Positions 5,246-29,697 of a stretch of DNA of 29,697 nt are shown here, piece by piece. Source of the DNA: a virus; IMG/VR virus record IMGVR_UViG_3300036768_001053, positions 1 through 29,697 of that record; one strand, written 5' to 3'. A program made the position numbers and the translations under genes. How positions within the stretch are numbered: position 1 is the first letter of the stretch; each line of letters starts with the position of its first letter. Below the pieces are notes generated by a model, which saw only the letters and a program-made list of their open reading frames with translations, did not search any database and was not told where the DNA came from.

Positions 5246-6396
5246 ACGTGAAAGAGATGCAGGAAAAGCGGTCGAAATTGCTGGCCGATGCCCGCGCGCT
5301 GTTGGATCGCGCCGAGCACGAGGGCCGCGACCTGACGCCGGAGGAAAGCCAGCAATTCGACCGGATGATGCAAGAGGCTGACGCGCTCGCCCAAGCGGTC
5401 GAGCGGCGTGCACAGCTGGAGCAGCGGGACGCTGTGAAGATCGTGAGCGTCGCCGGGGAATCTGCCGAAAAGCCGCAGGATGTCGAGTATCGCTCCGCAT
5501 TTCTGCGGTATTTGCGGTTCGATAAGCCTGCCTTGTCGCCTGAGGAGCTCCGCGCGCTCGGCGAGGGCAGCGGCGCCCAGGGCGGGTACCTCGTGCCGAC
5601 CTCGATGGCCCAGCAGATCGTGACCAAGCTGCACGAGGCCAACTTCATCAGGCGGCTCGCCACCGTCATCAAGACGGACAGCACCACCACGATCCCTGTG
5701 GAAGACACCGTTGCGGCGGCCGCGTGGACTGGCGAGTCCGGTGCGATCCCTGAAACCACCGCCACGTTCGCCCAAAAGCAGCTCGGCGCGTACAAGTTGA
5801 CGTGCTTGTTCAAGGTGTCCGAGGAGCTGCTACAGGACGCCGCGTTCGACCTGGAGGCCTACTTGGCCGGGCGGATTGCTGGGGCCTTCGCTGATGCCGA
5901 GATTGCGGCCTTCGTCAACGGTGACGGTAGCGGCAAGCCTGCCGGCATCGTTGGCGCTGCGGGCGTTGGCGTGACGGCGGCGAGCGCCACTGCGATCGCG
6001 GCTGACGAGCTGATTTCCCTCTTCTACGCGCTCGACCAGCAGTACCGCCAGAACGCTGTCTGGGTCATGCACCCCACCACCGCTGCGGCCGTGCGGAAAC
6101 TGAAGGCCACCACGAACGAGTATCTGTGGCAGCCTGGCCTCGCTGGCGGGCAGCCCGAGACGCTGCTCGGACTGCCGCTCTACACCACGGTGGCGATGCC
6201 GACCATCGGGGCTGGCAAGCGGTCGGTTTTGCTGGCCAACTTCGGCTACTACTGGGTCGGCGACCGCGGGCAGCGGCAGATGCAGCGTCTGAGCGAGCTC
6301 TACGCCGCCAACGGCCAGGTCGGGTTCAGGGCATGGGAGCGGGTCGACGGGGTGCTAACCCTGTCCGACGCCGCCAAGGTGCTCGTGCACCCCTAA
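5242..6396 (+). CDS. Major capsid protein, HK97 gp5 fold
   Basis: A 384-residue HK97-family capsid protein. Residues 1-75 are a helical, charged delta/scaffold domain expected to be removed by the protease encoded just upstream. The shell domain follows, with the family hallmarks GSGAQGGYLVPTSM, TIPVEDT, WTGESGAIPETTATF, LFKVSEELLQDA, FVNGDGSGKPAGI and GDRGQRQMQRLSE. ATG 5242 overlaps the protease stop (ATGA), and GGAGG lies 6 nt upstream. The cleavage site is not directly visible; it probably falls between residues 70 and 105. A strong hairpin lies immediately downstream. Confidence 0.96.
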   Translation: MNVKEMQEKRSKLLADARALLDRAEHEGRDLTPEESQQFDRMMQEADALAQAVERRAQLEQRDAVKIVSVAGESAEKPQDVEYRSAFLRYLRFDKPALSPEELRALGEGSGAQGGYLVPTSMAQQIVTKLHEANFIRRLATVIKTDSTTTIPVEDTVAAAAWTGESGAIPETTATFAQKQLGAYKLTCLFKVSEELLQDAAFDLEAYLAGRIAGAFADAEIAAFVNGDGSGKPAGIVGAAGVGVTAASATAIAADELISLFYALDQQYRQNAVWVMHPTTAAAVRKLKATTNEYLWQPGLAGGQPETLLGLPLYTTVAMPTIGAGKRSVLLANFGYYWVGDRGQRQMQRLSELYAANGQVGFRAWERVDGVLTLSDAAKVLVHP

Positions 6397-6405
6397 CGTG
6401 AGTTA

Positions 6406-6441
6406 GCCCCCGCGGTCGGGTGCACCCCCGGCCGCGGGGGC
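6406..6441 (+). terminator. GC-rich stem-loop behind the capsid gene
   Basis: A 15-bp stem (6406-6420 with 6427-6441, one G-T pair) closes a 6-nt loop and begins 10 nt after the capsid stop codon. There is no T-tract; a ribosome site for the next gene follows directly. It probably stabilises the capsid mRNA end or partly attenuates read-through, setting a high ratio of capsid to neck proteins. The role is inferred from position. Confidence 0.6.
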
Positions 6442-6453
6442 AAGGAGGCGATC

Positions 6454-6633
6454 ATGGCAAAGACAAAGGTGCGGTTGCTGGTTGCTCTGGCGGGGCCGGC
6501 TGGAGCGTGGCAAGCTGGCGACACCTACGAATGCAGCGATGACGAGGCCGAGCGCCTCATTGAGCGCGGTTTTGCCGAGCCCGTTACCGCCCAAAAGGGC
6601 AGCGAAGATCACAAGAAAAAGGCCCGGCGATGA
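6454..6633 (+). CDS. Small conserved-type phage head protein (59 aa)
   Basis: This short gene begins at ATG 6454 with AGGAGG 6 nt upstream and ends in a TGA sharing ATGA with the next gene at 6630. The sequence begins MAKTKVRLLVALAG and contains AGDTYECSDDEAERLIERGFAEPV. That pattern (beta strands, a --PGD-- turn, then an acidic helix E-A--LI--G-AEPV) is common in small proteins encoded beside HK97-type capsid genes. Their role is unclear; a head-decoration or assembly function is often assumed. It has a Lys/Arg-rich tail. Confidence 0.8.
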   Translation: MAKTKVRLLVALAGPAGAWQAGDTYECSDDEAERLIERGFAEPVTAQKGSEDHKKKARR

Positions 6634-9293: not shown

Positions 9294-9806
9294 ATGGAGG
9301 TCTTCGACTGGAGGATCACGATCCACGACTCGTGGCTACGCGGGGACGATGAGTTCGTTCAAGTCCCGATCCCAGAGATCTACTCTTCACCGGTGTTTGC
9401 GCTACGCCCGACAGACGAGGAGGACCGGGTTCGGATCGCATCGCGGGCCGGATACTGCAGGGCGTGCGACGGACGTGGTGCGATCCCTGCTGGGTTCGCC
9501 GCTAATCCTGCTCCGATGACGTGCCCGAAGTGCAAGGGAAAAGGGAAAGGAATGGATCACCCGGACGTGCGGCTCGCGATCTTCCGGCACGTCGTTGGCG
9601 GGTGGAGTGGGTGGCGTACTGAGGAGGGCACGGAGATCCCATTTACGCCGGAGAACGTCGAGCGGGCAGCGCGGCACACGGCGCTGTTCGCCGTTGTTGT
9701 GGCGAAGGCCCAGACGCTGAAGGTCGAGTACAGGCAGGCGATCGATGAAAATTTAGCGTCTGGGCCGCCTTCGTTATCGGCGGCCGAGGACAGCAGCCAC
9801 GAGTAG
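9294..9806 (+). CDS. Tail assembly chaperone (gpG-like) with a DnaJ-type zinc motif insert
   Basis: The 170-residue product is the zero-frame product of the tail chaperone pair. After the N-terminal FALRPTDEEDRVRIASR and again at DVRLAIFRHVVGGWSGW through GTEIPFTPENVERA it follows the usual chaperone pattern. Between them, residues 55-86 contain two CxxCxGxG units (CRACDGRG, CPKCKGKGKG), the hallmark of the DnaJ cysteine-rich domain, here with half the usual four. It should bind one zinc ion. The protein coats the tape measure during tail assembly. Near its end lies a -1 frameshift signal at 9749-9785 that yields an extended form. Confidence 0.88.
   Translation: MEVFDWRITIHDSWLRGDDEFVQVPIPEIYSSPVFALRPTDEEDRVRIASRAGYCRACDGRGAIPAGFAANPAPMTCPKCKGKGKGMDHPDVRLAIFRHVVGGWSGWRTEEGTEIPFTPENVERAARHTALFAVVVAKAQTLKVEYRQAIDENLASGPPSLSAAEDSSHE
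9749..9785 (+). promoter_or_regulatory. -1 programmed ribosomal frameshift signal (slippery site plus stem-loop)
   Basis: In zero frame the codons GAA AAT TTA contain the heptamer A AAT TTA (9749-9755), a canonical X XXY YYZ slippery site. After a 7-nt spacer, GGCCGCC (9763-9769) pairs with GGCGGCC (9779-9785) across a 9-nt loop. The -1 frame is closed by TGA at 9746-9748, immediately before the heptamer, and open from there to 10078. This is the layout seen in lambda G/GT-type tail genes, and A/T-rich bases stand out in this GC-rich genome. Confidence 0.88.
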
Positions 9807-10078
9807 CAGTGCCGTGGATGAGGGACGTGCTGCGAGCATGGAGCCTGGTGCAGGGACAGTGGCGGGTCGGCATGGCCGGCATCGTGAGCGGAGATTACGG
9901 CTCCTGGGCGGCCGTCCTGCGTCCCTACGGGCTTTGGCGGCGGCGGATCATCGAGGCTCTGCGCGTCTTCGAGGCTGAGGCCCTGCGCGAGGCGCGCGAG
10001 CGGGAGCGCGCCCAGCGCTACTACGGCGACGCCGACTACGCCGCGATGGTAGAGGAGGCAATCCGTGCCGAGAGCTGA
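9755..10078 (+). CDS. Tail assembly chaperone, frameshifted T-like extension (gpGT fusion)
   Basis: Read in the -1 frame from the slippery site, this segment adds 107 residues to the first 154 of the upstream gene, giving a 261-residue G-T fusion. The extension starts SVWAAFVIGG and continues MRDVLRAWSLVQGQWRVG, then a charged helix (EAEALREARERERAQRYYGD). In lambda-like phages the T part recruits the tail tube protein to the chaperone-coated tape measure. A GTG at 9809 (or ATG 9818) could start a separate 86-89 residue protein, but it has no ribosome site. The last codons overlap the tape measure start by 14 nt. Confidence 0.85.
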   Translation, partial: SVWAAFVIGGRGQQPRVAVPWMRDVLRAWSLVQGQWRVGMAGIVSGDYGSWAAVLRPYGLWRRRIIEALRVFEAEALREARERERAQRYYGDADYAAMVEEAIRAES

Positions 10079-13000
10079 CGCGATCATCGTTGCGCGGGCC
10101 GACGTCACAGGTGCCATCGAGGGCCTGCAGACGCTTTCCCAGCAGCTCGAGGCGACCGGGAAAACCGGCGACGTTGCCGCGCAGGAGTCCGCAAAGTTCG
10201 AGCGGCAGCTCTCGAATCTCCTACGCAGCCTCGACCCAGTCGGTGCCGCAACAGCGCGTTACGAGCGTCAGCAAGACCTTCTCCGGCAGGCCTACGAGCG
10301 CGGCAGATTGTCCGCAGAGCAGTACGCGGACGCGACAGCAAAGCTCAAAGCAAAATTTGAAGAAAAAATGGCTGCACTGCAGCGCGGGCCCCAGGTGTTT
10401 GACGCGCTGATTCAGCGTTACACCGGGCTTTCTCGCGAGGCGTTCACGGCTGTCGGGATCATCGGTGGGCTTGCGGCTGGTCTGACCTTTTCGGTCCGCG
10501 CCGCAGCTGAGGCCGAGGCCGCCGATAGAAGGCTTGAGGCGATGCTGCGCGCAACTGGAGGCGCGGCGGGCGTGACGAAGGCACAGCTCGACGCGCTCGC
10601 GACCGAGATCCAGCGCGCCACAGGGATGTCTGACGAGCACGTCAAGGCGGCCGAGGCCATCCTGCTTACGTATCGCAGCGTGAATGCCGAGGTATTCCCC
10701 AAGGCAATCAGACTTGCCGCAGACCTCGCAGCGGTGATGGGGACGGATCTCCAGACGGCTGTGCGCCAGGTCGGCATGGCGCTCGAGGATCCGATCGGAG
10801 GCATGGACCGGCTGCGCCGCGCTGGCGTAGTCCTCGATGAGCAGACGCGGGCCTATATCCAAACGCTCGTGGACGCTGGCAAGCAGGAAGAAGCTCAGCG
10901 CGTGCTTCTGGAGCAGCTCGAAATTCGCGTCGGCGGCGTGGCGAAGGCGGTCGGAAGCGGACTCACTGGGCAGCTCAATGCGGCAAAACAGGCGTTCGGC
11001 GACCTGGCTGAGTACGTCGGCGGTACTGTGCTCCCGCTGCTGACAAGTATCGCCACCGGATTCAACAACGTTCTCTCTGGAATCAACGAACTGATTGGCC
11101 AGACGAAAGAGCGAGGGTTGAAGGGCCTTGTAGACACGTTCGGCGACCTCGCTGTCGGCCTTGGCCTCGCCAAAGCTGAGGATGTAAACGCCGGGGCTGC
11201 GATGCTCGGGCTCAAGGATAGCACCGAGAAGGCGCGCATCCAGGTGAAGACGCTCCAGGAGGCCGTGAAGGGCATTACGCCCGATGTCGTAGCCTGGAAA
11301 GAGGAGACAAAGAAGGCTGGAGACGAACAGGCGCGCCTCAAGGTGCTCAACGAGCAGCTGAAGAGCGTCACGGACGAGCTGAAGATCGCCCAGCAGGAGC
11401 ACCGCGACCTCGTGCAGGATCTGGTGAAGGCAGGCGCTGATCACTACACCGTGATCCAGATGACACTGCCGGAGCTGGAGCAGTACTGGCAGAAGTGGCA
11501 GAACGTAGACCTCGTGTTGCGCAATCTACCTGACGACGTGAATGCGGTGATCCAGGCCTGGCCGAGCGTAGACGAGATCGAGCGCGTTTTCCCGATCCCG
11601 AAACCACCAGAAGAGCAGTGGTGGAAGGACAAGTGGTCAGCAAAGGGGCGCGAGGCTATCTCTGCATTCTCCGAGTCGTTCGGAGCTGGGTTCTTCGCGT
11701 TCCTGTCAGGTGATGATTTCCGGAGTGCATTTTCCCAGGTCTGGGGCACGCTCGCCAACATTGCCCAGGGCATTCTCGGGAATACTTTCCAACAGATCTT
11801 CTCGGGCCAGGGGAGCTTCATGAAGCGCCTGCAGGAGAGCGGCTGGGTCTCTCCCGGCGGAGCGGTCAACTGGCAGCAGGTCGGCATGGTTGGCGGCACC
11901 ATGCTGTGGGGCTACGGTGCGTCCCAGGGGAACAGGGGTATGGGCGCGGCCGGTGGAGCGATTGCGGGTGCCTCGATGGGAATGACGTTCGGGCCGTGGG
12001 GCGCGGTGATCGGGGCAATTATCGGTGGAATCATCGGGTATTTCACAAGTGGGGCAAAAACCTACGGGTACAACATCGCACTCGACAGGTACGGCCGCGG
12101 TATCGTTGACATTACAGGGGTCAGTCAGCCCGAGGAAGACGAGCGCCTGCGTCAGCTGCGTGATGTAGCGCGCCAGTATTTTTCGGGATTTCGGGCGCTG
12201 CTGGAGCTTCTTCGGCAGCCGTTGCCTGACACTTCGCAGTGGAAATTCGAGGCGCATGGGCAGGCAGGCGACACCGCTGGCATGTGGCAGCGCATCATCT
12301 CTGGCGATCTGCCTCGCTCGATTTTTGCCCTGTACAGGCCAGCGATCGAGGCCGGGCTTGGGCAGCTGGGTGTGGCCCAGGAGCGCATCGCTGAGCTGAT
12401 GGGGCAGTTCCAGACTGGGCAATTTTCGGAGGCCTTGTCCGAGCTGACGGACTACGTGCGGGCCCTAATGAGGCTCCGAGATCTCCATGCCGAGCTGGGT
12501 AAGTCGCTCGAGCAGCTGCGCAGTGAATGGCAGCAAACCGTCGAGGAGAGGTTGCGCCAGGGCACCATGGACACGCTGCAGGCGATCCAAGAGGGGATCG
12601 CCGCGATGCAGCAGATGACCTCCCCTGAACAGGTCCAGCGTGCCAACCAGCTCGCTGATGCCATCGAGCGGCAGGGGCAAGCGCTGGCGCAGTACATCCA
12701 GGCAATCTTCGCCGAACAGACGCGTGCGCAACAGCAAGTGGAAGGGCTGCGCGCATCGTGGGAGGAGCAGCGCGCCAGGGAGCAGGGTGCCGGCGCGCTT
12801 GCCGACTATTACCAGCAGCGGTACTCGCAGCTGGTGCAGCAGCTGTCCGGTGCAACGAGTCTCGAGCAGGCGCAATTCCTCTGGCAGCAGGTGCTCCAAG
12901 TCCTGCAGGGTGGCTGGCAAGTCGGCGGCCAACCTGGCATGGAGTACATGCGGCAATGGGCCGAGCATGCGCTTGGGCCGGCCGAAGCGATGTACCATGA

Positions 13001-18140: not shown

Positions 18141-18664
18141 AGCGAGTGGTCACTGTCCTGTTGGTGCTGTTGGCCGCGGCCCCTGCCGTGGCCGGCTGGC
18201 TCGTTGACGAGTCGGCCCTGGTCTGCTATGGGCCGGTGGCGGGTCCACCTGGCATCGGCCTCGGCGGGCTCAAGTACGCCGACGGCTGCCCTGCTGGCTA
18301 CACGCAGGCGCAGTTACCGCAGGCGCCAAGGCCTTGGTGGCAGGCGCTGCTGGAGCAGCTGGACACCTGGTTCGGCCTCTCACAGCGGGTAGTCTGGGTG
18401 CCGACCGCCAAGCAGTTGGCCGCCCTCACCTTGCTGATTGCCATCCTCCGCAACGGGCTCGGGCTGTCCCGCTGGATCAATGGGCCCTGGACGCTGCTGC
18501 TGAGCGCGGCGCTCGCGGTCGCGCTCTACGTCCAAAGTGCGGTGGCCGACGGGTCGCTCACTCTCATGGAGGCCATTCTGGCGGTTGTCAGCACGGTCGC
18601 CGGCTCCGCTGGCCTGTGGGAGGGCCTGAAGCACCTCGTGCGGCACCGCCTCGAGCACGGATAG
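18137..18664 (+). CDS. Membrane protein of the lysis region, possible holin
   Basis: The 175-residue protein begins with a clear signal sequence or first membrane segment (MKRVVTVLLVLLAAAPAVAG). It has a ~75-residue external-type region with two cysteines (LVCYGP, DGCPAGY) and then three hydrophobic stretches (QLAALTLLIAILRNGL, WTLLLSAALAVALYVQ, ILAVVSTVAGSAGLW) ending in a basic tail HLVRHRLEHG. Three C-terminal membrane segments plus a charged tail suit a holin, but the long exported domain is unusual. The gene overlaps the endolysin stop (ATGA) and ends the late operon. Confidence 0.65.
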   Translation: MKRVVTVLLVLLAAAPAVAGWLVDESALVCYGPVAGPPGIGLGGLKYADGCPAGYTQAQLPQAPRPWWQALLEQLDTWFGLSQRVVWVPTAKQLAALTLLIAILRNGLGLSRWINGPWTLLLSAALAVALYVQSAVADGSLTLMEAILAVVSTVAGSAGLWEGLKHLVRHRLEHG

Positions 18665-18731
18665 AAGTGGCTGCCTCCCTGCCGCCCGCCCTCCCGGCAC
18701 GGTTCGCTCCTCCAGCCGAAAGCCGGGGCAT

Positions 18732-18776
18732 GCCTGCGCCTGGGCATACTGCCGGGCAGGTGCAGGCGTCTTTTTT
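18732..18776 (+). terminator. Rho-independent terminator of the late operon
   Basis: GCCTGCGCCTG (18732-18742) pairs with CAGGTGCAGGC (18757-18767) with one G-T pair, an 11-bp stem. The loop of 14 nt contains a further GGCA/TGCC pairing. Three nucleotides later comes a run of six T (18771-18776). It lies 67 nt after the last late gene, on the correct strand. The rest of the gap to 18890 holds no gene. Confidence 0.88.
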
Positions 18777-18834
18777 CGCGCATGCGCCCTGAGCAGGACC
18801 CCAGGCAGCCATACGTCCCGGGGCCTCCGACAGG

Positions 18835-18858
18835 AGAGCCCCCGGCTAAGGGGGCTCT
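18835..18858 (-). terminator. Stem-loop at the end of the leftward operon
   Basis: AGAGCCCCC (18835-18843) pairs perfectly with GGGGGCTCT (18850-18858) over a 6-nt loop. It is 32 nt past the stop codon of the last leftward gene. There is no T-run on the minus strand, so termination efficiency is uncertain. It separates the two converging units together with the rightward terminator at 18732. Confidence 0.6.
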
Positions 18859-18890
18859 GCGCCTCCTGATTCTGTTTGTGCGGCGGCTCC

Positions 18891-19235
18891 TCACCCGCGG
18901 AGGTGGAGGAATGCGGCCACCTTGAGAGGGTGGCGCTCGAGGTACCACTCCACTGTCCGGGTGTAGACCCGCCGCCGGCGTCCCAGCATGACGAGCACCC
19001 GGAGCGTCGGCCACCGGGAGCCGCGCGCCACCGGGCAGCCGGTGAGCACGACCGGCACACCACGTCCCAGAGCCTCCAGCGCATCCTGCGGCAGGGCGGC
19101 CCGCGGCACCTGGTGCTTCGCCATCGGCGAGTCAGGTCCGCGGGAGAATGCGATAGACGGGGGGCAGGGCAGCACCATCACTGCCAAAGCCGCCCCGGCC
19201 CCCCACTCGCAGGCGACTTTCTCAGCTGTCTTCAT
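18891..19235 (-). CDS. Protein of unknown function, last gene of the leftward operon (114 aa)
   Basis: I do not recognise this protein. It starts MKTAEKVACEWGAGAALAVM and contains PCPPSIAFSRGPD, PVVLTGCPVARGSRWPTLRV and VYTRTVEWYLERHP. It overlaps the upstream leftward gene by 14 nt, the same overlap size seen in the packaging genes, which supports it as real. There is no strong ribosome site, so translation is probably coupled. It has three cysteines and many Arg residues. The alternative that it is a chance frame in GC-rich DNA cannot be excluded. Confidence 0.6.
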   Translation of the reverse strand: MKTAEKVACEWGAGAALAVMVLPCPPSIAFSRGPDSPMAKHQVPRAALPQDALEALGRGVPVVLTGCPVARGSRWPTLRVLVMLGRRRRVYTRTVEWYLERHPLKVAAFLHLRG

Positions 19236-19758
19236 AGCTCAGCCCATCGCTTAGCGCCTCGAGCCGCAGACGATCCAGGCGCCCGAGGCAGATCGTCGGC
19301 TTCTCCGATTTGCGCCGCCTTGACCAGAGGTGAAGATACACCAGCGGCTTCGGGAACTCGTCGAGGAGTGCCGCGGCCTCAGGTGTCAGGCTGGCCCTAA
19401 GTGCGTTCCTCTTCGCGATCGCAACTTCTGTCTCGAGGTCGCCTATGGGCCAGCACGCAAGCGTCATCTGTCCCTCCGCCCAGTGCCGGAGAACCGTCCA
19501 CCCCTGGTTGACCTCTTCCGCCGTTCCGTTGACAACGACTGCGAAGGATAGTTGGTACCCTTCGAACACCCGGAGCCTGCGAAACCGGCAGACGAATCGC
19601 AGCTGGTTGCCGGTGCCTGTGGCAGCGGGGTAAACGAAGCCCCACGCGCCAACTTCGTCTCCAATGGCGCGGGCGATTCTCGGTAAAATGCCAGGCGCTT
19701 TTGCGGCAATTTTCGCGGCCAGCAATGAGGCCTCCCATACGTTTTCCGGCCATTTCAT
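19222..19758 (-). CDS. Protein of unknown function, middle gene of the leftward operon (178 aa)
   Basis: No family recognised. The chosen start is the ATG at 19758 (minus strand), with GGAGG 8 nt upstream. Frames extending further upstream lack a ribosome site. The N-terminus is a helix (VWEASLLAAKIAAKAPGILPRIARAIG). A beta-rich core follows (NQLRFVCRFRRLRVFEGYQLSFAVVV, TLACWPIGD), then a helical C-terminus with LTPEAAALLDEFPK and a basic RRRKSEK loop. Mixed alpha/beta, soluble, with no signal peptide or catalytic motif seen. Downstream it overlaps the 114-residue gene by 14 nt. Confidence 0.75.
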   Translation of the reverse strand: MKWPENVWEASLLAAKIAAKAPGILPRIARAIGDEVGAWGFVYPAATGTGNQLRFVCRFRRLRVFEGYQLSFAVVVNGTAEEVNQGWTVLRHWAEGQMTLACWPIGDLETEVAIAKRNALRASLTPEAAALLDEFPKPLVYLHLWSRRRKSEKPTICLGRLDRLRLEALSDGLSYEDS

Positions 19759-19857
19759 TGTCCTGCCCTCCATGCCCCGTTTACCCCCGGGGCGAGGGCC
19801 CAGTGCCGGCTTCGCCTGCCGCCGCGGCCACCCCGGCATGGCAACCGCGGGGGAAAG

Positions 19858-19877
19858 GGGCGCGCCTAAGCGCGCCC
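19858..19877 (-). terminator. Stem-loop between the first and second leftward genes
   Basis: GGGCGCGC (19858-19865) pairs with GCGCGCCC (19870-19877) around a 4-nt loop, touching the stop codon of the 281-residue gene. On the minus strand a short CTTT follows. It could act as a partial terminator that lowers expression of the two downstream genes. The 118-nt gap up to the next gene start has no other recognisable element. Confidence 0.5.
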
Positions 19878-20722
19878 TATCCCTCGATCACGTAGCTCTT
19901 CCAGGCCCGGCGGAGCGCAGGCTGCCGGAGCTCTGCGCCTTCCGGCACCTCGAGCTCGAACCAGACGACAACGGACGGCGCCACCGCCGGGTGCTTGGCG
20001 AAGCTGGCGGCTCCGGCGACCTGGGCGGCCGCCCACCAGAACTCGTTCGGCTCGATGGCGGCCGGCCCAGGGGGCAGCGGCACCACCAGGCCAACCACCT
20101 GGCCACCAGCCACCACCTCCAGCGGGGCGGAATAATCGGCAGCCCCCCGCCTCGGCCGGATCTCCACGGTTACCACGGTGGACGGCCCGGCGGCATGCGG
20201 GAGCTTCTCCGCCAGCAGGAGCAGGTTGCGCTCGGCGGCGGGGTGCGGCTCTGGCGCCGCGGCTTGCCCGGCTGCCTGGGGCTCACCGCCGCCGCCGAGG
20301 AGCGTGCGGATCTTTTCCTCGGCGGCGTCCCACGCCGCCGCCACCTCCGGGTCCATGGCCCGGAGGAGCTCCCGGGCCCCCTCGGCCGGCACCCCCAGCG
20401 TGCTGGCGAGGAGGGCCTCCCACTCGGCCCAGGAGGCCGGAATGGGCCCCCGCTTCCCGATGGCCGACCAGAGCCCCTCGGGGAAGTCCCCGGTGTCCCA
20501 GCCGTAATGGCCGGACACTGGGAGGACGCCGTCGGCCAGCGCGAGGCGCCAGACGGTGGCGGTCCACTTCCCCTTCCTGGGGCCAAGCTGGCGCGCCCTG
20601 ACGACACACCAGCCGGGGATGTCACGGCCATTGAACGGCCGGGCCTCCCCGGCGCGGAAGAACACCAGCCAGGCCGCGCGCGAGCGCGGCGCAAGCTGTT
20701 CCGTCCACGTGAACTCCATCAT
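19877..20722 (-). CDS. Protein of unknown function, first gene of the leftward operon (~281 aa)
   Basis: No family recognised. It starts at minus-strand ATG 20722 (or the adjacent ATG 20719) with GGGAGG 4-7 nt upstream. Two parts are visible. Residues 1-160 are tryptophan-rich (FTWTEQLAPRSRAAWLVFF, NGRDIPGWCVVRARQLG, KWTATVWRLALADG, GHYGWDTGDFPEGLW). Residues 190-281 have beta strands (STVVTVEIRPRR, PLEVVAGGQVVGLVVPL, SVVVWFELEVPEG). A low-complexity Gly/Ala/Pro/Glu linker joins them. The gene is even more GC-rich than the late genes by eye. It is driven by the promoter at 20838-20866. Being the promoter-proximal gene of an isolated opposite-strand operon suggests an accessory (anti-defence, exclusion or regulatory) role, which is an inference only. 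Confidence 0.75.
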   Translation of the reverse strand: MMEFTWTEQLAPRSRAAWLVFFRAGEARPFNGRDIPGWCVVRARQLGPRKGKWTATVWRLALADGVLPVSGHYGWDTGDFPEGLWSAIGKRGPIPASWAEWEALLASTLGVPAEGARELLRAMDPEVAAAWDAAEEKIRTLLGGGGEPQAAGQAAAPEPHPAAERNLLLLAEKLPHAAGPSTVVTVEIRPRRGAADYSAPLEVVAGGQVVGLVVPLPPGPAAIEPNEFWWAAAQVAGAASFAKHPAVAPSVVVWFELEVPEGAELRQPALRRAWKSYVIEG

Positions 20723-20734
20723 GGCTCCTCCCTT

Positions 20735-20756
20735 CCCCGGCTTTACGGCTCCGGGG
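20735..20756 (-). promoter_or_regulatory. Inverted repeat in the leader of the leftward operon
   Basis: CCCCGG (20735-20740) and CCGGGG (20751-20756) flank a 10-nt centre. The repeat sits a few bases upstream of the ribosome site of the first leftward gene, so in RNA it could form a small hairpin influencing translation, or in DNA be an operator. The evidence is only the symmetry and position. Confidence 0.35.
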
Positions 20757-20837
20757 TAGCCGTCCTGCCGGCCTCGGTTCGAGCCACCCACCACCCAGGC
20801 TTGGCGGCGGGGGGTGCTTTCTCACCACCCGGCTCCC

Positions 20838-20866
20838 AATCTAGTGCCGGCAAGCCGAGTTGTCAA
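20838..20866 (-). promoter_or_regulatory. Sigma70-type promoter of the leftward operon
   Basis: On the minus strand TTGACA (20866-20861) and TAGATT (20843-20838) are separated by exactly 17 nt. The -35 box is a perfect consensus and the -10 box matches 4 of 6 positions. This is the best promoter-like sequence I noticed in the window. The expected start is near 20831, giving a leader of about 110 nt. The palindrome TGCCGGCA (20845-20852) inside the spacer is a candidate operator. Confidence 0.72.
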
Positions 20867-21036
20867 GGGGGATGCAGCGTTGGCGAACGATCTTCGGCTC
20901 CCGCCGGCATTGCGCCACGTATGGCCGAATCTTTTGCGGCGCTTGCCTGTGTATTCCTTTCGCGTTTCGCCAGTGCCTCATGTACCCCCCTTGCCACGTG
21001 GCCAGGCGCGGCCCATGATGCAGCCAGGAGGTGGTC

Positions 21037-21261
21037 ATGGCGTGGATCCAATGGGTTGACGATAGAGACCGAGAGAGGGCGAAGCAGTGGGTCGCCCGCC
21101 TCGAGCAGGCAGCCGCTCGCCGCGGGATCGGCATTACCGAGCTCGCCGAGCGGCTTGGCGTTTCGCGGGCCACGGTTTACCTCTGGCGGCGAGGCCAGGT
21201 CCCGCGGCCCGAGACAATCCGCCGCGCCGAGGAGGTCTTCGGCGTCCGGTGGGGAGAGTAA
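21037..21261 (+). CDS. Small helix-turn-helix DNA-binding protein (Cro/XRE-like)
   Basis: The 74-residue protein has a helix-turn-helix at about residues 33-53, ITELAERLGVSRATVYLWRRG, with the usual glycine turn and a recognition helix followed by QVPRPETIRRAEEVFGV. ATG 21037 has GGAGG 5 nt upstream. As the first gene of the early operon, next to the divergent control region, it probably regulates one or both of these transcription units in the way of Cro. It has no dimerisation or cleavage domain of the CI type. Confidence 0.85.
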   Translation: MAWIQWVDDRDRERAKQWVARLEQAAARRGIGITELAERLGVSRATVYLWRRGQVPRPETIRRAEEVFGVRWGE

Positions 21262-21271
21262 GGAGGAGACA

Positions 21272-22003
21272 ATGGCAGACATCGTACTGGCACAAGGGGC
21301 AGAGATCGCTACGGCAGAGGACGCGGCGCGCGTCGCGGAGCTACACCGCGCCCTCCGCGTGGCAACACTCCGCATCACCCGGGCCTCCGACTGGGTGGAC
21401 ATGGATGGCCAGCCATACCTTTCCGCTTCTGGGGCCCAGCGGCTCGCTCCGCTGTTCAGGATCAGGACGCGGGGCGTACGCGTTGAACGGGTCGAGGAAC
21501 CGGGCGGCGGGTACACCGTCGTTGTGACCGGGGAGGCGTGCTCCGAGGTGCTCGACCCTGACGGCTGGCAAGAGGTCGTGGGCACCGCGAGCTCGGAGGA
21601 CCGCTTCTTGACCAAGGGCGGCAGGGTGAAGGCGGCCTACGGCGACGTGTTGAAAAAAGCCATGACCAACTTCACCGCGCGGGCCATCAAGCAGCTGATC
21701 GGCCTCGGCGGCATAACCTGGGAGGACCTCGCCGAGCACGGCATCCGCAGGCAGGATGCGCCCCAGGTGCACTACGCCTCGCCTACGCGCGAGGGGTGGG
21801 TAGCGATCAAGATCCGCTACCAGGACCGCGACCGCCTGCGGGCGATCTGCAGGTCAACAGCCGGCGTGTCCCCGACATGGGACGGTGAGACAAAAACGTG
21901 GAGGGTCCCGGCTGAGGTCGCGTCGCATCAGGAGGTGAAGGCGATGATCGAGGCCGCCTTGGCGGCGAAGAGCAGCGCCGAGCTGCCACTGGAGGAGCCA
22001 TGA
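21272..22003 (+). CDS. Putative ssDNA-binding/annealing-type recombination protein with a HARP-like C-terminus
   Basis: The 243-residue protein starts at ATG 21272 with AAGGAGG a few bases upstream. The N-terminal part carries TRASDWVDMDGQPYLSASGAQRLAPLF. That pattern recurs in phage proteins encoded beside RecB-like exonucleases and is usually annotated hypothetical. The middle has TKGGRVKAAYGDVLKKAMTNF. The C-terminal segment (about 180-215, IKIRYQDRDRLRAICR through SPTWDGETKTWRVP) resembles a HARP-type motif found in SMARCAL1-family annealing helicases. Directly followed (ATGA) by a Cas4-like nuclease, it may act as the annealing partner in a two-component recombination system. The function is inferred from context. 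Confidence 0.7.
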   Translation: MADIVLAQGAEIATAEDAARVAELHRALRVATLRITRASDWVDMDGQPYLSASGAQRLAPLFRIRTRGVRVERVEEPGGGYTVVVTGEACSEVLDPDGWQEVVGTASSEDRFLTKGGRVKAAYGDVLKKAMTNFTARAIKQLIGLGGITWEDLAEHGIRRQDAPQVHYASPTREGWVAIKIRYQDRDRLRAICRSTAGVSPTWDGETKTWRVPAEVASHQEVKAMIEAALAAKSSAELPLEEP

Positions 22004-23057: not shown

Positions 23058-24524
23058 GTGTACGCGAAGATCTTCGACACCATCCTTCGCAGCTCGATCT
23101 GGGTCAACCACCCGCCCCACGTGCGTGTTGCCTGGATCGGGCTGCTGCTGCTCGCGAGGCCGGGGAGACTTCCGGACGGGCGCAGGGTCGGCATCGTGCA
23201 GGGGACGCGAGCAGGGCTCGCGAGGGCGCTCTCCCTCGAGCTGGAGCAGTTCGAGGAGGCCTTGGAGGTCCTGATGGCGCCGGACCCGGACTCCACCTCG
23301 ACCGAGTTCGAGGGAAGGAGGATCATCGAGCTGAAGCCGAACCGGTGGGCCGTGGTGAACTACTCCCGCTACCAGCGGATGCGTGACGAGGACAACCGGC
23401 GGATCCAGTCCCGCGAGCTCATGCGCGAGCTTCGCGAGGCGAGGAGGGGTGGCGGTGCTGCTGCTGGTTCGGGCAGCTCCTGGAGAAGCGCAGATGTGGG
23501 GACAAGGTTAGATGGGTCAACGACTTCAGCCAGAAATGCTAACAATGCTAACAGTGCTAACACTTGGCTCGCGAATGACCTAAAGCTAGCCGAGTCAACA
23601 ACTTCAGCCAGATGTGCTAACAATGCTAACATTGCTAACGCAGACGGCGGAAAAAGGCTAAGTGTAGACAGGTCACTAAGTTCAGCCAGAAATGCTAACA
23701 ATGCTAACAATGCTAACATCGGTAGCAGTGCTAACAAGGTGGCGGGTGACCGAAACCCGGACGCTGAGAGTGCCATTTTGGCACGCTCGGGAGGCTCGGC
23801 TGGTGCCATTTTGGCACCTCCAGCCGGCTCGAAAGGCGCTGGACCCGAGTTTTCCACAGGTTTTCCACAGGACACGGTCCTGAATGAGCAAGTCGTTGAC
23901 TGCGTAGGGGATGTTCCGACTTTTTCCACAGCTTTTCCACAGGTTTTCCACAGCTTTTCCACAACTTTTCCACAGCCTCCGAACTCGCCAGCATCGAGCA
24001 GACCGGCCCGGTTGCACAAAAACGAGTGCAGCGCCTACTACTACGATAAAGAGAGTACAGAGATCTCTCAGGAGTCTATAGTCGTGGGGGATATGGAGGA
24101 TAGGGGGGGATGCAAGGGGGGGAAAGGGGGAAAAGGGGTAGTCACATATCCTGCATCTCAGCCGAAGCACACGAAGCCCAAGAGGTCGACCGCCTCCTCG
24201 ATCTGGGTGCTGCAGCCGGGCGAGGAGCCCGTCATGAACTTCCCGTGCGAAGGAGAGGCCGACACCTGGGCCCTTTCCCCTTCAGGTTTTCGCTGGCTCC
24301 AGGAGCACTACCGCACCGTGGACGTTGAGGCGGAGCTCAGGTCCGCAAAGGCGTGGTTAGTAGGCAACCCTGGCCGGCTCAAGACCGCGCGCGGGATGCC
24401 GCGGTTCCTGGTCAACTGGATGGAGAAGGCTGCCCGCGACAGGCGCGGCTACCGGCGCCAGCCTGACCTGCTCGCGGGCGTGGAGGACCTGCTCAAGGGG
24501 GCAGGGGAAGGAGGTGACGAGTGA
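23058..24524 (+). CDS. Replication initiator (lambda O-like) carrying an internal origin
   Basis: The 488-residue protein starts at GTG 23058 with GGAGG 6 nt upstream. Residues 1-110 look like a winged-helix initiator domain (MYAKIFDTILRSSIWVNHPPHVRVAWIG split over two helices, IIELKPNRWAVVNYSRYQ). The C-terminal 90 residues (SGFRWLQEHYRTV, AKAWLVGNPGRLKTARGMPRFLVNWMEKA) match the end of many phage primosomal/replication proteins that contact the helicase. Between them (about 150-370) is low-complexity sequence: three NANNAN-type repeats spaced by 26 residues, FSTxFPQ repeats, and a GGKGGKG stretch. This part appears shaped by DNA-level origin elements. As in lambda O, the protein probably binds iterons within its own gene. 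Confidence 0.85.
   Translation: MYAKIFDTILRSSIWVNHPPHVRVAWIGLLLLARPGRLPDGRRVGIVQGTRAGLARALSLELEQFEEALEVLMAPDPDSTSTEFEGRRIIELKPNRWAVVNYSRYQRMRDEDNRRIQSRELMRELREARRGGGAAAGSGSSWRSADVGTRLDGSTTSARNANNANSANTWLANDLKLAESTTSARCANNANIANADGGKRLSVDRSLSSARNANNANNANIGSSANKVAGDRNPDAESAILARSGGSAGAILAPPAGSKGAGPEFSTGFPQDTVLNEQVVDCVGDVPTFSTAFPQVFHSFSTTFPQPPNSPASSRPARLHKNECSAYYYDKESTEISQESIVVGDMEDRGGCKGGKGGKGVVTYPASQPKHTKPKRSTASSIWVLQPGEEPVMNFPCEGEADTWALSPSGFRWLQEHYRTVDVEAELRSAKAWLVGNPGRLKTARGMPRFLVNWMEKAARDRRGYRRQPDLLAGVEDLLKGAGEGGDE
23516..23749. repeat. Three 78-bp direct repeats, each with an iteron triplet
   Basis: The marker GTCAAC/GTCAC begins at 23516, 23594 and 23672, exactly 78 bp apart. TTCAGCCAGA follows each, then three iterons with the core GCTAAC at 9-bp spacing. 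The core positions are 23538, 23547, 23556; 23616, 23625, 23634; 23694, 23703, 23712; and a tenth at 23730. Consensus of the 9-bp unit is AATGCTAAC. Both periods are multiples of three, so the repeats preserve the reading frame and code for NAN tripeptides. The third unit diverges after its iterons. Confidence 0.95.
23770..23817. repeat. Two identical 15-bp palindromes 33 bp apart
   Basis: GTGCCATTTTGGCAC occurs at 23770-23784 and 23803-23817. Each is a 6-bp inverted repeat around TTT; the second has one extra flanking G-C pair. The spacing of 33 bp is close to three helical turns, so both sites face the same side of the DNA. They lie between the iterons and the DnaA-like boxes and look like binding sites for a dimeric protein, perhaps the helix-turn-helix protein encoded at 21037 or a host factor. 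Confidence 0.88.
23850..23974 (+). repeat. Seven DnaA-box-like TTTTCCACA sites at 11-bp spacing
   Basis: TTTTCCACA starts at 23850 and 23861, and again at 23922, 23933, 23944, 23955 and 23966. All have the same orientation, and every neighbour within a group is exactly 11 bp away. The sequence fits the broad DnaA consensus TTWTNCACA. Since 11 is not a multiple of 3, each copy is read in a different codon phase, so the repetition is maintained for the DNA and not the protein. It probably loads host DnaA cooperatively. Confidence 0.9.
24103..24138 (+). other. G-quadruplex motif next to the origin
   Basis: Runs of 7, 7, 5 and 4 G are separated by loops of 6, 3 (AAA) and 4 (AAAA) nt, with a further G5 at 24086-24090. 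This fulfils the strict four-tract quadruplex pattern on the plus strand. It encodes a Gly/Lys-rich linker (GCKGGKGGKG) in the initiator. Being just beyond the DnaA-like boxes it may influence unwinding, primer synthesis or fork stalling. Confidence 0.75.
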
Positions 24525-28170: not shown

Positions 28171-28531
28171 ACGGGCGTGTGCTGACATCCGCTGTCCACG
28201 TCCGGCTGTGCCGGGCCACGCCTGGTGCGAGGAGCACCTAGCGCGGCACAGCAGGGAGGAGGATGCCGAGTACCGCCGTCGGCATCCCCGGGCGGGGGAT
28301 CCCAGGGGAACGCAGCGGTGGCGACGCATCGCCGCGGCGTACCTCGCGATGCATCCGCTCTGCCAGCGGTGCGGCAAGGCGCTTGCCAGGCAGGTCCACC
28401 ACCGGGTGGCGATCGCGGCCGGCGGCGATCCGTGGGACACCGCCAACCTCCTGGCGGTCTGCCTGCGATGCCATGCCGACCTGGAGCGGGAGGAGCGGCC
28501 GAAGAGGAAGGGGGGGTCAAATTGTGGCTAA
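28157..28531 (+). CDS. HNH endonuclease
   Basis: The 124-residue protein has an N-terminal zinc knuckle (C8, C13, C24, H27: CADIRCPRP, WCEEH) and a classical HNH fold. CQRCG (C69, C72) and CLRCH (C102, C105) hold zinc, QVHHRVAIAAGGDPWDTANLLAVC has the catalytic His pair (81-82) and N97, and H106 is the last histidine. In HK97-like phages such an HNH protein stimulates terminase cutting at cos. Here it lies about 2 kb before the terminase genes across the join, consistent with that role. The stop overlaps a possible small gene. Confidence 0.93.
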   Translation: MPRDRRACADIRCPRPAVPGHAWCEEHLARHSREEDAEYRRRHPRAGDPRGTQRWRRIAAAYLAMHPLCQRCGKALARQVHHRVAIAAGGDPWDTANLLAVCLRCHADLEREERPKRKGGSNCG

Positions 28532-28640: not shown

Positions 28641-29697
28641 ATGCTAGTACCCATCGAACTCTCTGAGGAGTTGCCGGCGATTCAGTGGCATATTCCAGGG
28701 CTCATCCCTGGTGGGTACATCACCACTGTCTACTCCCAGCCCGGGGTTTCGAAGACATGCATCGGCGCCTTCCTGGCCGTCCAGACGGCACGAAAGCATG
28801 GGAGCTTCGCTGGATACCAGGTCCGACACGGCAGGGCAGTGGTCATTGACGCCGATGATGGCAGCGGGATCGGTTATACGCTTTGGCTAAATCGCTTCAT
28901 GAGGGTGTACAAGGACGCTGACCGTCGCCTCATCTCGCTTTACTCGGTGGACGTGGATGGCCTGACCAGCGAAGACATCGAGCTGCTGGGGCAAGATCTG
29001 CGACGCGACCCGCCGGCCCTGGTTGTGCTGGATAGCTTCTCGTCTGCGTTCCCCTCGCTTGCCACACACATCCCGCACAAGGTCCACGCTTGCCTGAGAA
29101 CAATAGGCATGATCGCAAAGGAGAGTGGTGCTGCCATCGTGGTAGTAGACAGCGCCGGAAAACTTGTCACAGGGCAGAGCATCGCGTCGAAGGGTCCGCT
29201 TGGCACCGTGGCGAAGCTCATTCTCCCCCGGGCAGCGTTCGCGCTGGAGCGGGTGCCCCCTGCCGATGTGGACGGGCGGGACGTGCTCAAGCTCACGTGC
29301 ACCAAGCAGAGCTTTGGACCGGTGCCTCCTGCCCTGTGGCTGGAGTTGGTGAGACGCGGAGACGATGCGTTCGACATCGAGGTGGTGGAAGGGCAGTCCG
29401 CGATCCAGCGCGATGCGGACCACGTCCCGCGGTTCTTCGAGCTTCTGGGTGAGCTCTTGGGTTCCGGGCAGGCGCACTTGCTCTCCCGGGAGCACCCCCA
29501 GCAGCCACCAGAGCACCCGGAGCGCTGGGGCTGGAAGCCTGACGCCGCAGGAAGCCTCAGGCCGGGCGGGCCGCACATCGGCTGGGTGGACCGCACCTTC
29601 GCTTACCTGCTCCCCACCGCCACGTATGCAGCCCTGTGGAGACACGCCAGCACCGTCGGCTTGCCGCTTCCCTCGGAACGCGTGCTTTGGAAGCGGC
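28641..29697 (+). CDS. RepA-like replicative ATPase/helicase, N-terminal part (continues at base 1)
   Basis: The start is ATG 28641 with GGGAGG 6-7 nt upstream. The full protein across the join is 561 residues. The core resembles the RecA-fold AAA_25/RepA family of hexameric helicases. A P-loop-like SQPGVSKT lies at residues 32-39, IDADDG at 69-74, a Walker B strand PALVVLDS ends at D131, and VVVDSAGK at 167-174 occupies the place of the family's usual HH-GK sensor. The first and last glycines of the P-loop consensus GxxxxGKT are replaced by Ser, and the sensor histidines by Asp-Ser, although Lys38-Thr39 remain. The likely role is DNA unwinding or helicase/primase recruitment for phage replication, working with the initiator at 23058. 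The altered motifs leave ATPase activity unproven. Confidence 0.82.
   Translation, partial: MLVPIELSEELPAIQWHIPGLIPGGYITTVYSQPGVSKTCIGAFLAVQTARKHGSFAGYQVRHGRAVVIDADDGSGIGYTLWLNRFMRVYKDADRRLISLYSVDVDGLTSEDIELLGQDLRRDPPALVVLDSFSSAFPSLATHIPHKVHACLRTIGMIAKESGAAIVVVDSAGKLVTGQSIASKGPLGTVAKLILPRAAFALERVPPADVDGRDVLKLTCTKQSFGPVPPALWLELVRRGDDAFDIEVVEGQSAIQRDADHVPRFFELLGELLGSGQAHLLSREHPQQPPEHPERWGWKPDAAGSLRPGGPHIGWVDRTFAYLLPTATYAALWRHASTVGLPLPSERVLWKR
29610..29697. repeat. Terminal direct repeat, right copy
   Basis: Exact copy of bases 1-88. Merging the copies joins the reading frame that begins at 28641 to the one that ends at 717 without a stop or a frame change. Confidence 0.95.

Follow-up and report, generated by a model that had tools for sequence, protein, structure and literature searches.

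Predicted pseudoknot leaders before genes of a putative accessory cassette in a tailed phage and its sister

Genes and leaders of the cassette

The window analysed here is the whole of a 29,697-base stretch of virus record IMGVR_UViG_3300036768_001053 (positions 1 to 29,697; 65% guanine plus cytosine, GC), and our subject is the cassette of three leftward genes, g1, g2 and g3, at 18,891–20,866 (Table 1). An original prediction, made from the sequence alone, had singled out this cassette as an isolated leftward operon with its own promoter. We find that g1 and g2 each stand behind a structured leader, overlooked in that first reading, in which a hairpin is followed by a computed H-type pseudoknot at or close to the Shine-Dalgarno sequence. 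Leaders of the same design recur in a sister phage, IMGVR_UViG_3300036768_000752 (G339; 34,766 bases, with loci L102 and L105 as its two ends). We regard this repeated leader as a more interesting feature than the orientation of the cassette.

Table 1. Positions of the cassette genes, their leaders and the surrounding signals in the window
Feature	Position	Strand	Remarks
g1	19877..20722	-	281 residues; codon usage
g2	19222..19758	-	178 residues; codon usage
g3	18891..19235	-	114 residues; codon usage; no leader of its own
Sigma-70-like promoter TTGACA-17-TAGATT	20838..20866	-	TTGACA 20866-20861; TAGATT 20843-20838; 10/12 consensus positions
Leader hairpin 1 of g1	20787..20811	-	9-bp stem; 7-nt loop AAGCCTG
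H-type pseudoknot before g1	20735..20763	-	S1 ACGGCU:AGCCGU; L1 A; S2 CCCCGG:CCGGGG; L3 AAAG
Shine-Dalgarno of g1	20727..20734	-	AAGGGAGG; abuts pseudoknot
Leader hairpin 1 of g2	19822..19850	-	loop ATGCCGG
H-type pseudoknot before g2	19774..19799	-	S1 of 4 bp including one wobble pair; S2 GCCCCG:CGGGGC; A-rich L3
Shine-Dalgarno of g2	19766..19771	-	GGAGGG
Hairpin across g1 stop codon	19858..19877	-	terminator-like; weak U tract CTTTCCCC next
Hairpin between convergent units, 3' of g3	18835..18858	.	kept after last late gene in sister phage
Hairpin and T6 beyond late operon	18728..18776	+	rightward terminator, read by eye
Xre/HTH_3 gene, divergent from cassette	21031..21261	+	family match

The recurring form first emerged from a hairpin scan ahead of Shine-Dalgarno sequences. 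We wrote it as a descriptor that runs from the S1 5' arm through 1–2 nt, the S2 5' arm (6–7 bp), the S1 3' arm, 3–5 nt with at least two A and the S2 3' arm to a gap of 0–4 nt, the Shine-Dalgarno sequence and the start. With an S1 of at least 4 bp it fits 8 of the 221 Shine-Dalgarno-bearing starts in the window and G339, which belong to seven genes, as g1 carries two ATGs side by side. The window contributes g1 and g2; G339 contributes the counterpart of g1, the gene in the position of RecT and genes for 81-, 175- and 128-residue proteins. Hairpin 1, whose loop resembles AAGCCGG or ATGCCGG, and the linker GCCGGCA (ACCGGCA once) lie upstream at six of the eight leaders; hairpin 1 was read by eye at those labelled w_g2, S_a, S_b and S_g1, where other hairpins ranked first in the folding list. 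Pairing of the hairpin-1 loop with the linker is plausible, and since GCCGGC is self-complementary such pairing lies beyond covariation. A terminator-like hairpin across the preceding stop codon stands ahead of the g2 leader and of two G339 leaders.

The three leftward genes of the original prediction are real by codon usage. With 17 other genes of the window as the training set, codon scores reach 0.277 (g1), 0.164 (g2) and 0.186 (g3) bits per codon, all above the off-frame maximum of 0.083 (mean −0.205, sd 0.169), and a greedy codon-score gene call over the whole window returned 36 rightward genes and only these three leftward. The promoter with a TTGACA −35 and a 17-nt spacer is present as described, and so is the 14-nt overlap of the last two genes (19222–19235). 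Promoter-like sites are rare locally, with two found in 18600–21300 against 0.1 expected; the second is a divergent TTGCCA-17-CATGAT ahead of the Xre gene, and the promoter of the cassette is thus not unique. The terminator scan did not call the hairpin at the end of g1 with its CTTTCCCC tract.

The window phage is of the HK97 type, with terminase, portal, protease, capsid, tape measure and tail genes running rightward up to 18664. Right of the cassette, and rightward to the window end, follow genes for Xre, a 243-residue protein, a Cas4-type exonuclease, resolvase- and HNH-type proteins and a cut ATPase-like protein. 'RecT-position' for the 243-residue protein and 'ATPase-like' for the end gene are our own putative labels, drawn from position and sequence; the former protein has no family match in Pfam, PHROGs or NCBIfam. 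A palindrome, TTGCCACGTGGCCA (20991–21004), overlies the −35 element in the promoter of Xre and is a candidate autoregulatory operator.

Recurrence and structure of the leaders

At 65% GC, and with several stems that are runs of C and G, one might suspect that such hairpins arise by chance in GC-rich DNA. However, dinucleotide shuffling of the upstream regions (200 replicates) gave a mean of 0.01 fits and a maximum of 1, against 8 in the real sequences. The controls, 104 other loci totalling 1.35 Mb, hold 1385 Shine-Dalgarno-bearing starts; not one of these fits the descriptor with an S1 of at least 4 bp, and one, in L080, fits with at least 3 bp; in the 27 of these loci with a GC fraction of at least 0.60 the counts are 0 and 1 of 535. 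The controls left out the loci cut from the window, from G339 and L103, as well as L083, L098–L100 and L118–L123. An earlier control run of 92 loci agrees, and the contig G340, described below, holds no descriptor match. An S2-type hairpin before a Shine-Dalgarno sequence occurs at only nine starts in the two phages, and S1 has at least 4 bp in eight of them and 3 bp in the ninth. We therefore consider chance a highly improbable source of the leaders.

The helices also change in a way that keeps their pairing. In a MAFFT alignment of the leaders (A2), 83.7% of the pairs are standard, compared to 76.1% after shuffling, and six pairs are changed on both sides, compared to 2.9; none of 500 shuffles was as high in either measure. 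When the pairing partners are slid, pairing falls to 29–60.5%. The S1 5' arm with its own loop gives −72.1 kcal/mol and with swapped loops −52.1 kcal/mol (1% of 20,000 permutations). We also considered a switch in which S1 pairs alternately with the loop and with the Shine-Dalgarno sequence, and rejected it, as the latter pairing can form but is not specific (33% of permutations).

These results bear on whether the leaders are instead DNA-level repeats, serving as recombination joints or bound by proteins, that merely lie before genes. The window g1 and g2 leaders can be aligned with G339 29485–29585 at 74.8 and 78%, and a leader-plus-ORF (open reading frame) unit has been gained or lost as a block, both as repeats of that kind would have it. 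Against this, the distance to the Shine-Dalgarno sequence is fixed, the element is always on the coding strand, stems have changed in both arms without loss of pairing, and the S1 helix is sensible only in a single strand. A DNA-level origin thus seems unlikely to us.

Searches beyond the two phages returned little. A covariance model of the leaders (R1) scores its own eight training leaders at 46–59 bits; next come L080 9022–9063 (25.6 bits, E 0.003) and L105 969–1010 (23.0 bits), and the other 8 of the 18 rows are at noise level. The L080 site is a marginal pseudoknot-like leader with a 3-bp S1, and it precedes a gene of a contig whose terminase is distantly related. Among 200 genomes from one order, R1 picked out three at 29–31 bits, which we dropped: one match is in tandem repeats and the others are apparently coding, as judged by eye. 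When 2.9 million viral contigs were scanned for an exact pattern of one stem type, which covers three of the eight leaders, only the two copies of G339 were found, and blastn of the leaders against phages found no matches. Rfam models at their gathering scores matched nothing in the window, L102, L105 or L106 and only a transfer-messenger RNA (tmRNA) in L103, with chance-level matches alone in permissive searches; a ribozyme reading was dropped, there being no such match among the Rfam models.

Elsewhere in the window, a long GC hairpin at 6418–6456 lies flush against the AAGGAGG of a 59-residue gene behind the capsid gene. It scores 19.9 bits under R1, and a relative, L003, matches weakly in a comparable position (14.8 bits).

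The cassette region in related phages

G339 and the window phage are close in some parts and distant in others. Tail-tip and lysis-region genes are 80–93% identical, the RecT-position gene 57%, the Cas4-type gene 51% and the tape measure only 32%. The G339 counterpart of g1 is 71% identical and occupies the same place, from the late genes to the RecT-position gene, and that of g3 is 82% identical over 62 residues, cut by the contig end; both run rightward. Genes for 117- and 128-residue proteins, unlike g2, stand between them in place of g2. Orientation and gene set are therefore not conserved, with an inversion and the replacement of g2, which points to a zone of exchangeable accessory genes in this tailed phage.

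This comparison changes part of the original prediction. Support remains for a compact accessory cassette that lies between the late and the early genes and has a promoter of its own, but its leftward isolation loses its meaning as a trait, since in the sister phage g1 and g3 run in line with everything else. Stem-loops had been placed after g1 and g3, and both are there; the one after g3, however, also closes the late operon of the sister. Window 18783–18871, the hairpin region behind g3, matches G339 28443–28531, right after the last late gene and with g3 not nearby. Because the same hairpin follows the last late gene in G339, we assign it to the end of the late operon. The cassette is then not self-contained with a terminator of its own, and the hairpin is at most shared.

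In G339 the end of g1 and the 117- and 128-residue genes occur at both contig ends, with DNA identities of 91.3% and 86.8% (L105 1–1337 versus L102 10567–11573). The first copy carries an extra 328 bp (bases 644–971) made up of a hairpin, a pseudoknot and the 81-residue ORF, which has a paralogue, 43% identical, elsewhere in the zone. At 5750–5860 and 8425–8530 of L102 we noticed similar AT-rich stretches before accessory-zone genes that share, by eye, the motif TTTTGCATC..CAA.GAGCTGAC.AAAAAGTGCA. No sigma-70 site was found there, and a phage-specific promoter or operator is possible.

A more distant relative of g1 is found in G340 (135,539 bases), a hot-spring phage contig with a tmRNA, where locus L103 encodes a 209-residue protein similar to g1 residues 4–136 (33% identity, E 4e-16). 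L103 also holds two copies of a GC-rich, structured, apparently non-coding element (9697–9925 and 10769–10990; 81% identical over 216 nt). One copy is directly before the g1 relative, and GCTCTTTTTTT or a similar stretch after each could pair back; Rfam returned nothing above chance for the element, and blastn against phages found no match. By their IMG taxon numbers, L003 comes from Chocolate Pots hot spring cores and G340 from Great Boiling Spring GBS60 (PMC6137239, PMC6624737; table entry PMC6843859). The L003 terminase is 91% identical to that of the window. Because these taxon numbers point to hot springs, a thermophilic host for the window phage is likely.

L101, from a mine metagenome-assembled genome (MAG), has tail and lysis-region proteins 36–51% identical to those of the window phage. 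After its lysis region it carries different cargo (9621–12829, about 100 bases of which read N), with leftward Xre and tyrosine-recombinase-like genes. Could the leftward unit of the window then be what remains of a lysogeny module, the divergent Xre being its Cro-like partner? The leftward L101 genes lie at the same place, and in the window the Xre gene, whose promoter bears a palindrome, points away from the cassette. Yet g1–g3 match none of three leftward L101 proteins compared with them and show no HTH or integrase in Pfam and PHROGs, and in the sister phage g1 and g3 run rightward. As the window contig is cut at its right end, an integrase may lie elsewhere. We think such a remnant quite unlikely.

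The proteins themselves remain orphans, as had been predicted. Pfam, NCBIfam and PADLOC, a collection of known anti-phage defence systems, gave no family for g1, g2 or g3; PHROGs gave one chance-level match (g2, E 0.58), and PDB sequences gave none for g2 and g3 and only chance-level matches for g1 (the best a homeobox construct of 70 residues, E 0.0078). Tblastn of all three against 50,697 phages had no matches, nor had g1 and g2 against plasmids, whole g1 and g2 against the viral contigs, or g1 against genome contigs. No relatives of the cassette proteins appeared in 300 genomes from the order of a mine MAG, and nine whole genomes with TerL relatives gave only noise (E 0.008–0.009, in two). 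A weak g1 match in G002, one of 30 virus records, is to a long ORF resembling a replication protein and was judged to be chance. Relatives of g1 came only with residues 1–100 as the query, in two contigs (G339 and G340), and an alignment of the three g1 proteins recovered the same two and nothing further; g2 had no relative in any of these searches. AlphaFold models were too poor for fold comparison, with a mean predicted local distance difference test score (pLDDT) of 49.9 for g1 (three sequences) and 43.0 for g2 alone.

The original prediction suggested host takeover, exclusion, defence or anti-defence. These are guesses that our data neither support nor exclude. It is possible, if doubtful, that g1–g3 form a host-takeover, exclusion or anti-defence system whose operon is set apart for that purpose, and this would be compatible with the leaders described here. 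The zone is variable and next to early genes, genes have been replaced inside it, and the proteins are small orphans without homology to structural or lysogeny proteins, the finding that would have spoken for routine functions; there is no integrase or CI-like repressor among them. On the other hand, PADLOC yielded no match and no homologue has a known function, g2 is absent from the cassette of the sister so that g1–g3 are not a fixed set, and the 20 kb around the match in the 135-kb hot-spring contig contain only the g1 relative.

Possible roles of the leaders

The leaders recall several known systems. Start-associated sequences (SAS) of cluster K mycobacteriophages occur in many copies per genome, directly before the starts of unrelated genes, in a role that is not known; their consensus of 13 bp, GGGATAGGAGCCC, is followed with no more than two deviations and lies immediately upstream of the starts, and extended SAS (ESAS), 17-bp imperfect inverted repeats with a variable spacer, lie beside part of them (PMC3203893, PMC7302621). 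Microbacterium cluster EF phages have a similar start-associated set (same sources). Like SAS, our leaders occur in several copies before unrelated genes, with two in the window and five in G339 (six with an S1 of 3 bp). Unlike SAS, which are conserved in sequence, they vary in sequence and keep the pseudoknot structure. The extra upstream hairpin at six of the eight leaders can be set beside ESAS by description only; SAS, and by this description perhaps ESAS, share layout, not sequence, with the leaders, and the portions of those papers available to us report no pseudoknot for either. Ten SAS-like sites with at most three mismatches lie in the window, compared to 12.2 expected, and the sole site with two mismatches (24218–24230) is away from g1 and g2.

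In phage T4 gene 32 and in repZ, a pseudoknot before the Shine-Dalgarno sequence can repress or enable translation. As in the gene 32 operator, the leader pseudoknot here, a computed one, is 5' of the Shine-Dalgarno sequence, and the short first loop over an S2 of 6–7 bp is presumably a further likeness. Gene 32 is a single autoregulated gene in which a less structured, UUAAA-bearing stretch of more than 40 nt runs from pseudoknot to start, whereas our leaders serve several genes, S2 ends 0–4 nt before the Shine-Dalgarno sequence and no UUAAA-rich stretch intervenes. Translation of repZ of the IncIalpha plasmid ColIb-P9 depends on a pseudoknot upstream of the ribosome binding site (PMC8383071). 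That system is a single plasmid gene with an antisense RNA; we saw no antisense RNA here, where none was specifically sought. Compact H-type riboswitches of the preQ1-I and SAM-II types also place a pseudoknot with an A-rich third loop near the Shine-Dalgarno sequence. Unlike these, the leaders lack an Rfam match, an evident conserved ligand pocket and attached metabolic genes. A literature search, thin on subscription journals, found no account of repeated pseudoknot leaders in a DNA phage.

We think it probable that the cassette consists of exchangeable accessory genes, with g1 and g2 each behind a dispersed, structured translational leader that acts as a booster or a switch. The cassette would be transcribed from its own promoter as a single transcript. 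Each leader would usually comprise a hairpin with an A[AU]GCC[GU]G-like loop, the linker GCCGGCA and a compact pseudoknot 0–4 nt from the Shine-Dalgarno sequence. If the pseudoknot folds in the cell, its effect is most likely on the initiation of translation, the simplest reading because the leader touches the Shine-Dalgarno sequence. It may raise or lower translation. It could keep the Shine-Dalgarno sequence open as a ribosome landing place, so that each gene of the operon is translated on its own; it could equally bind a factor, from the phage or from the host, by which every gene with the leader is tuned. g3, which has no leader, may be coupled to g2 via their overlap, and leader-plus-ORF units would move as modules. 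A response of the leader to temperature in a hot spring is possible.

Several observations weigh against this explanation. The descriptor was written after seeing examples, so that the control counts are the informative side, and the element is present in only two phages, which makes events few. With the structure string set one column off, the alignment gives 62% pairing and two pairs changed on both sides. The S1 permutation result leans mainly on the contrast of two S1 types, that of g1 and that with GCCC, and the g1 leaders of the two phages are orthologous to each other. RNAfold, which is unable to fold pseudoknots, gives nested folds that depart only mildly from expectation (z −2.28 and −1.62). 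The leader of the 124-residue gene of G339 fits only with a 3-bp S1, and that of the second G339 copy of the 128-residue gene does not fit the descriptor. Finally, the duplication in G339 could be due to a mixed assembly of two strains.

It is tempting to speculate further that the leaders define a regulon of modular cassettes in a hot-spring phage lineage, each bringing a pseudoknot switch that answers one common signal. We hold this to be rather unlikely. If it were true, foreign genes would be co-regulated on arrival by joining behind a leader, and the signal, or any ligand, could be temperature, a small molecule, a protein of the phage or some factor of the host. The structure of the element is defined and shows helix covariation, and the element adjoins the Shine-Dalgarno sequence and travels with single genes; its role is thus open to reporter assays with paired mutations. 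If the leader is a switch, it would explain how a phage has immediate control over newly acquired accessory genes, and leaders of this kind may offer a handle for locating exchangeable accessory zones whose proteins are orphans.

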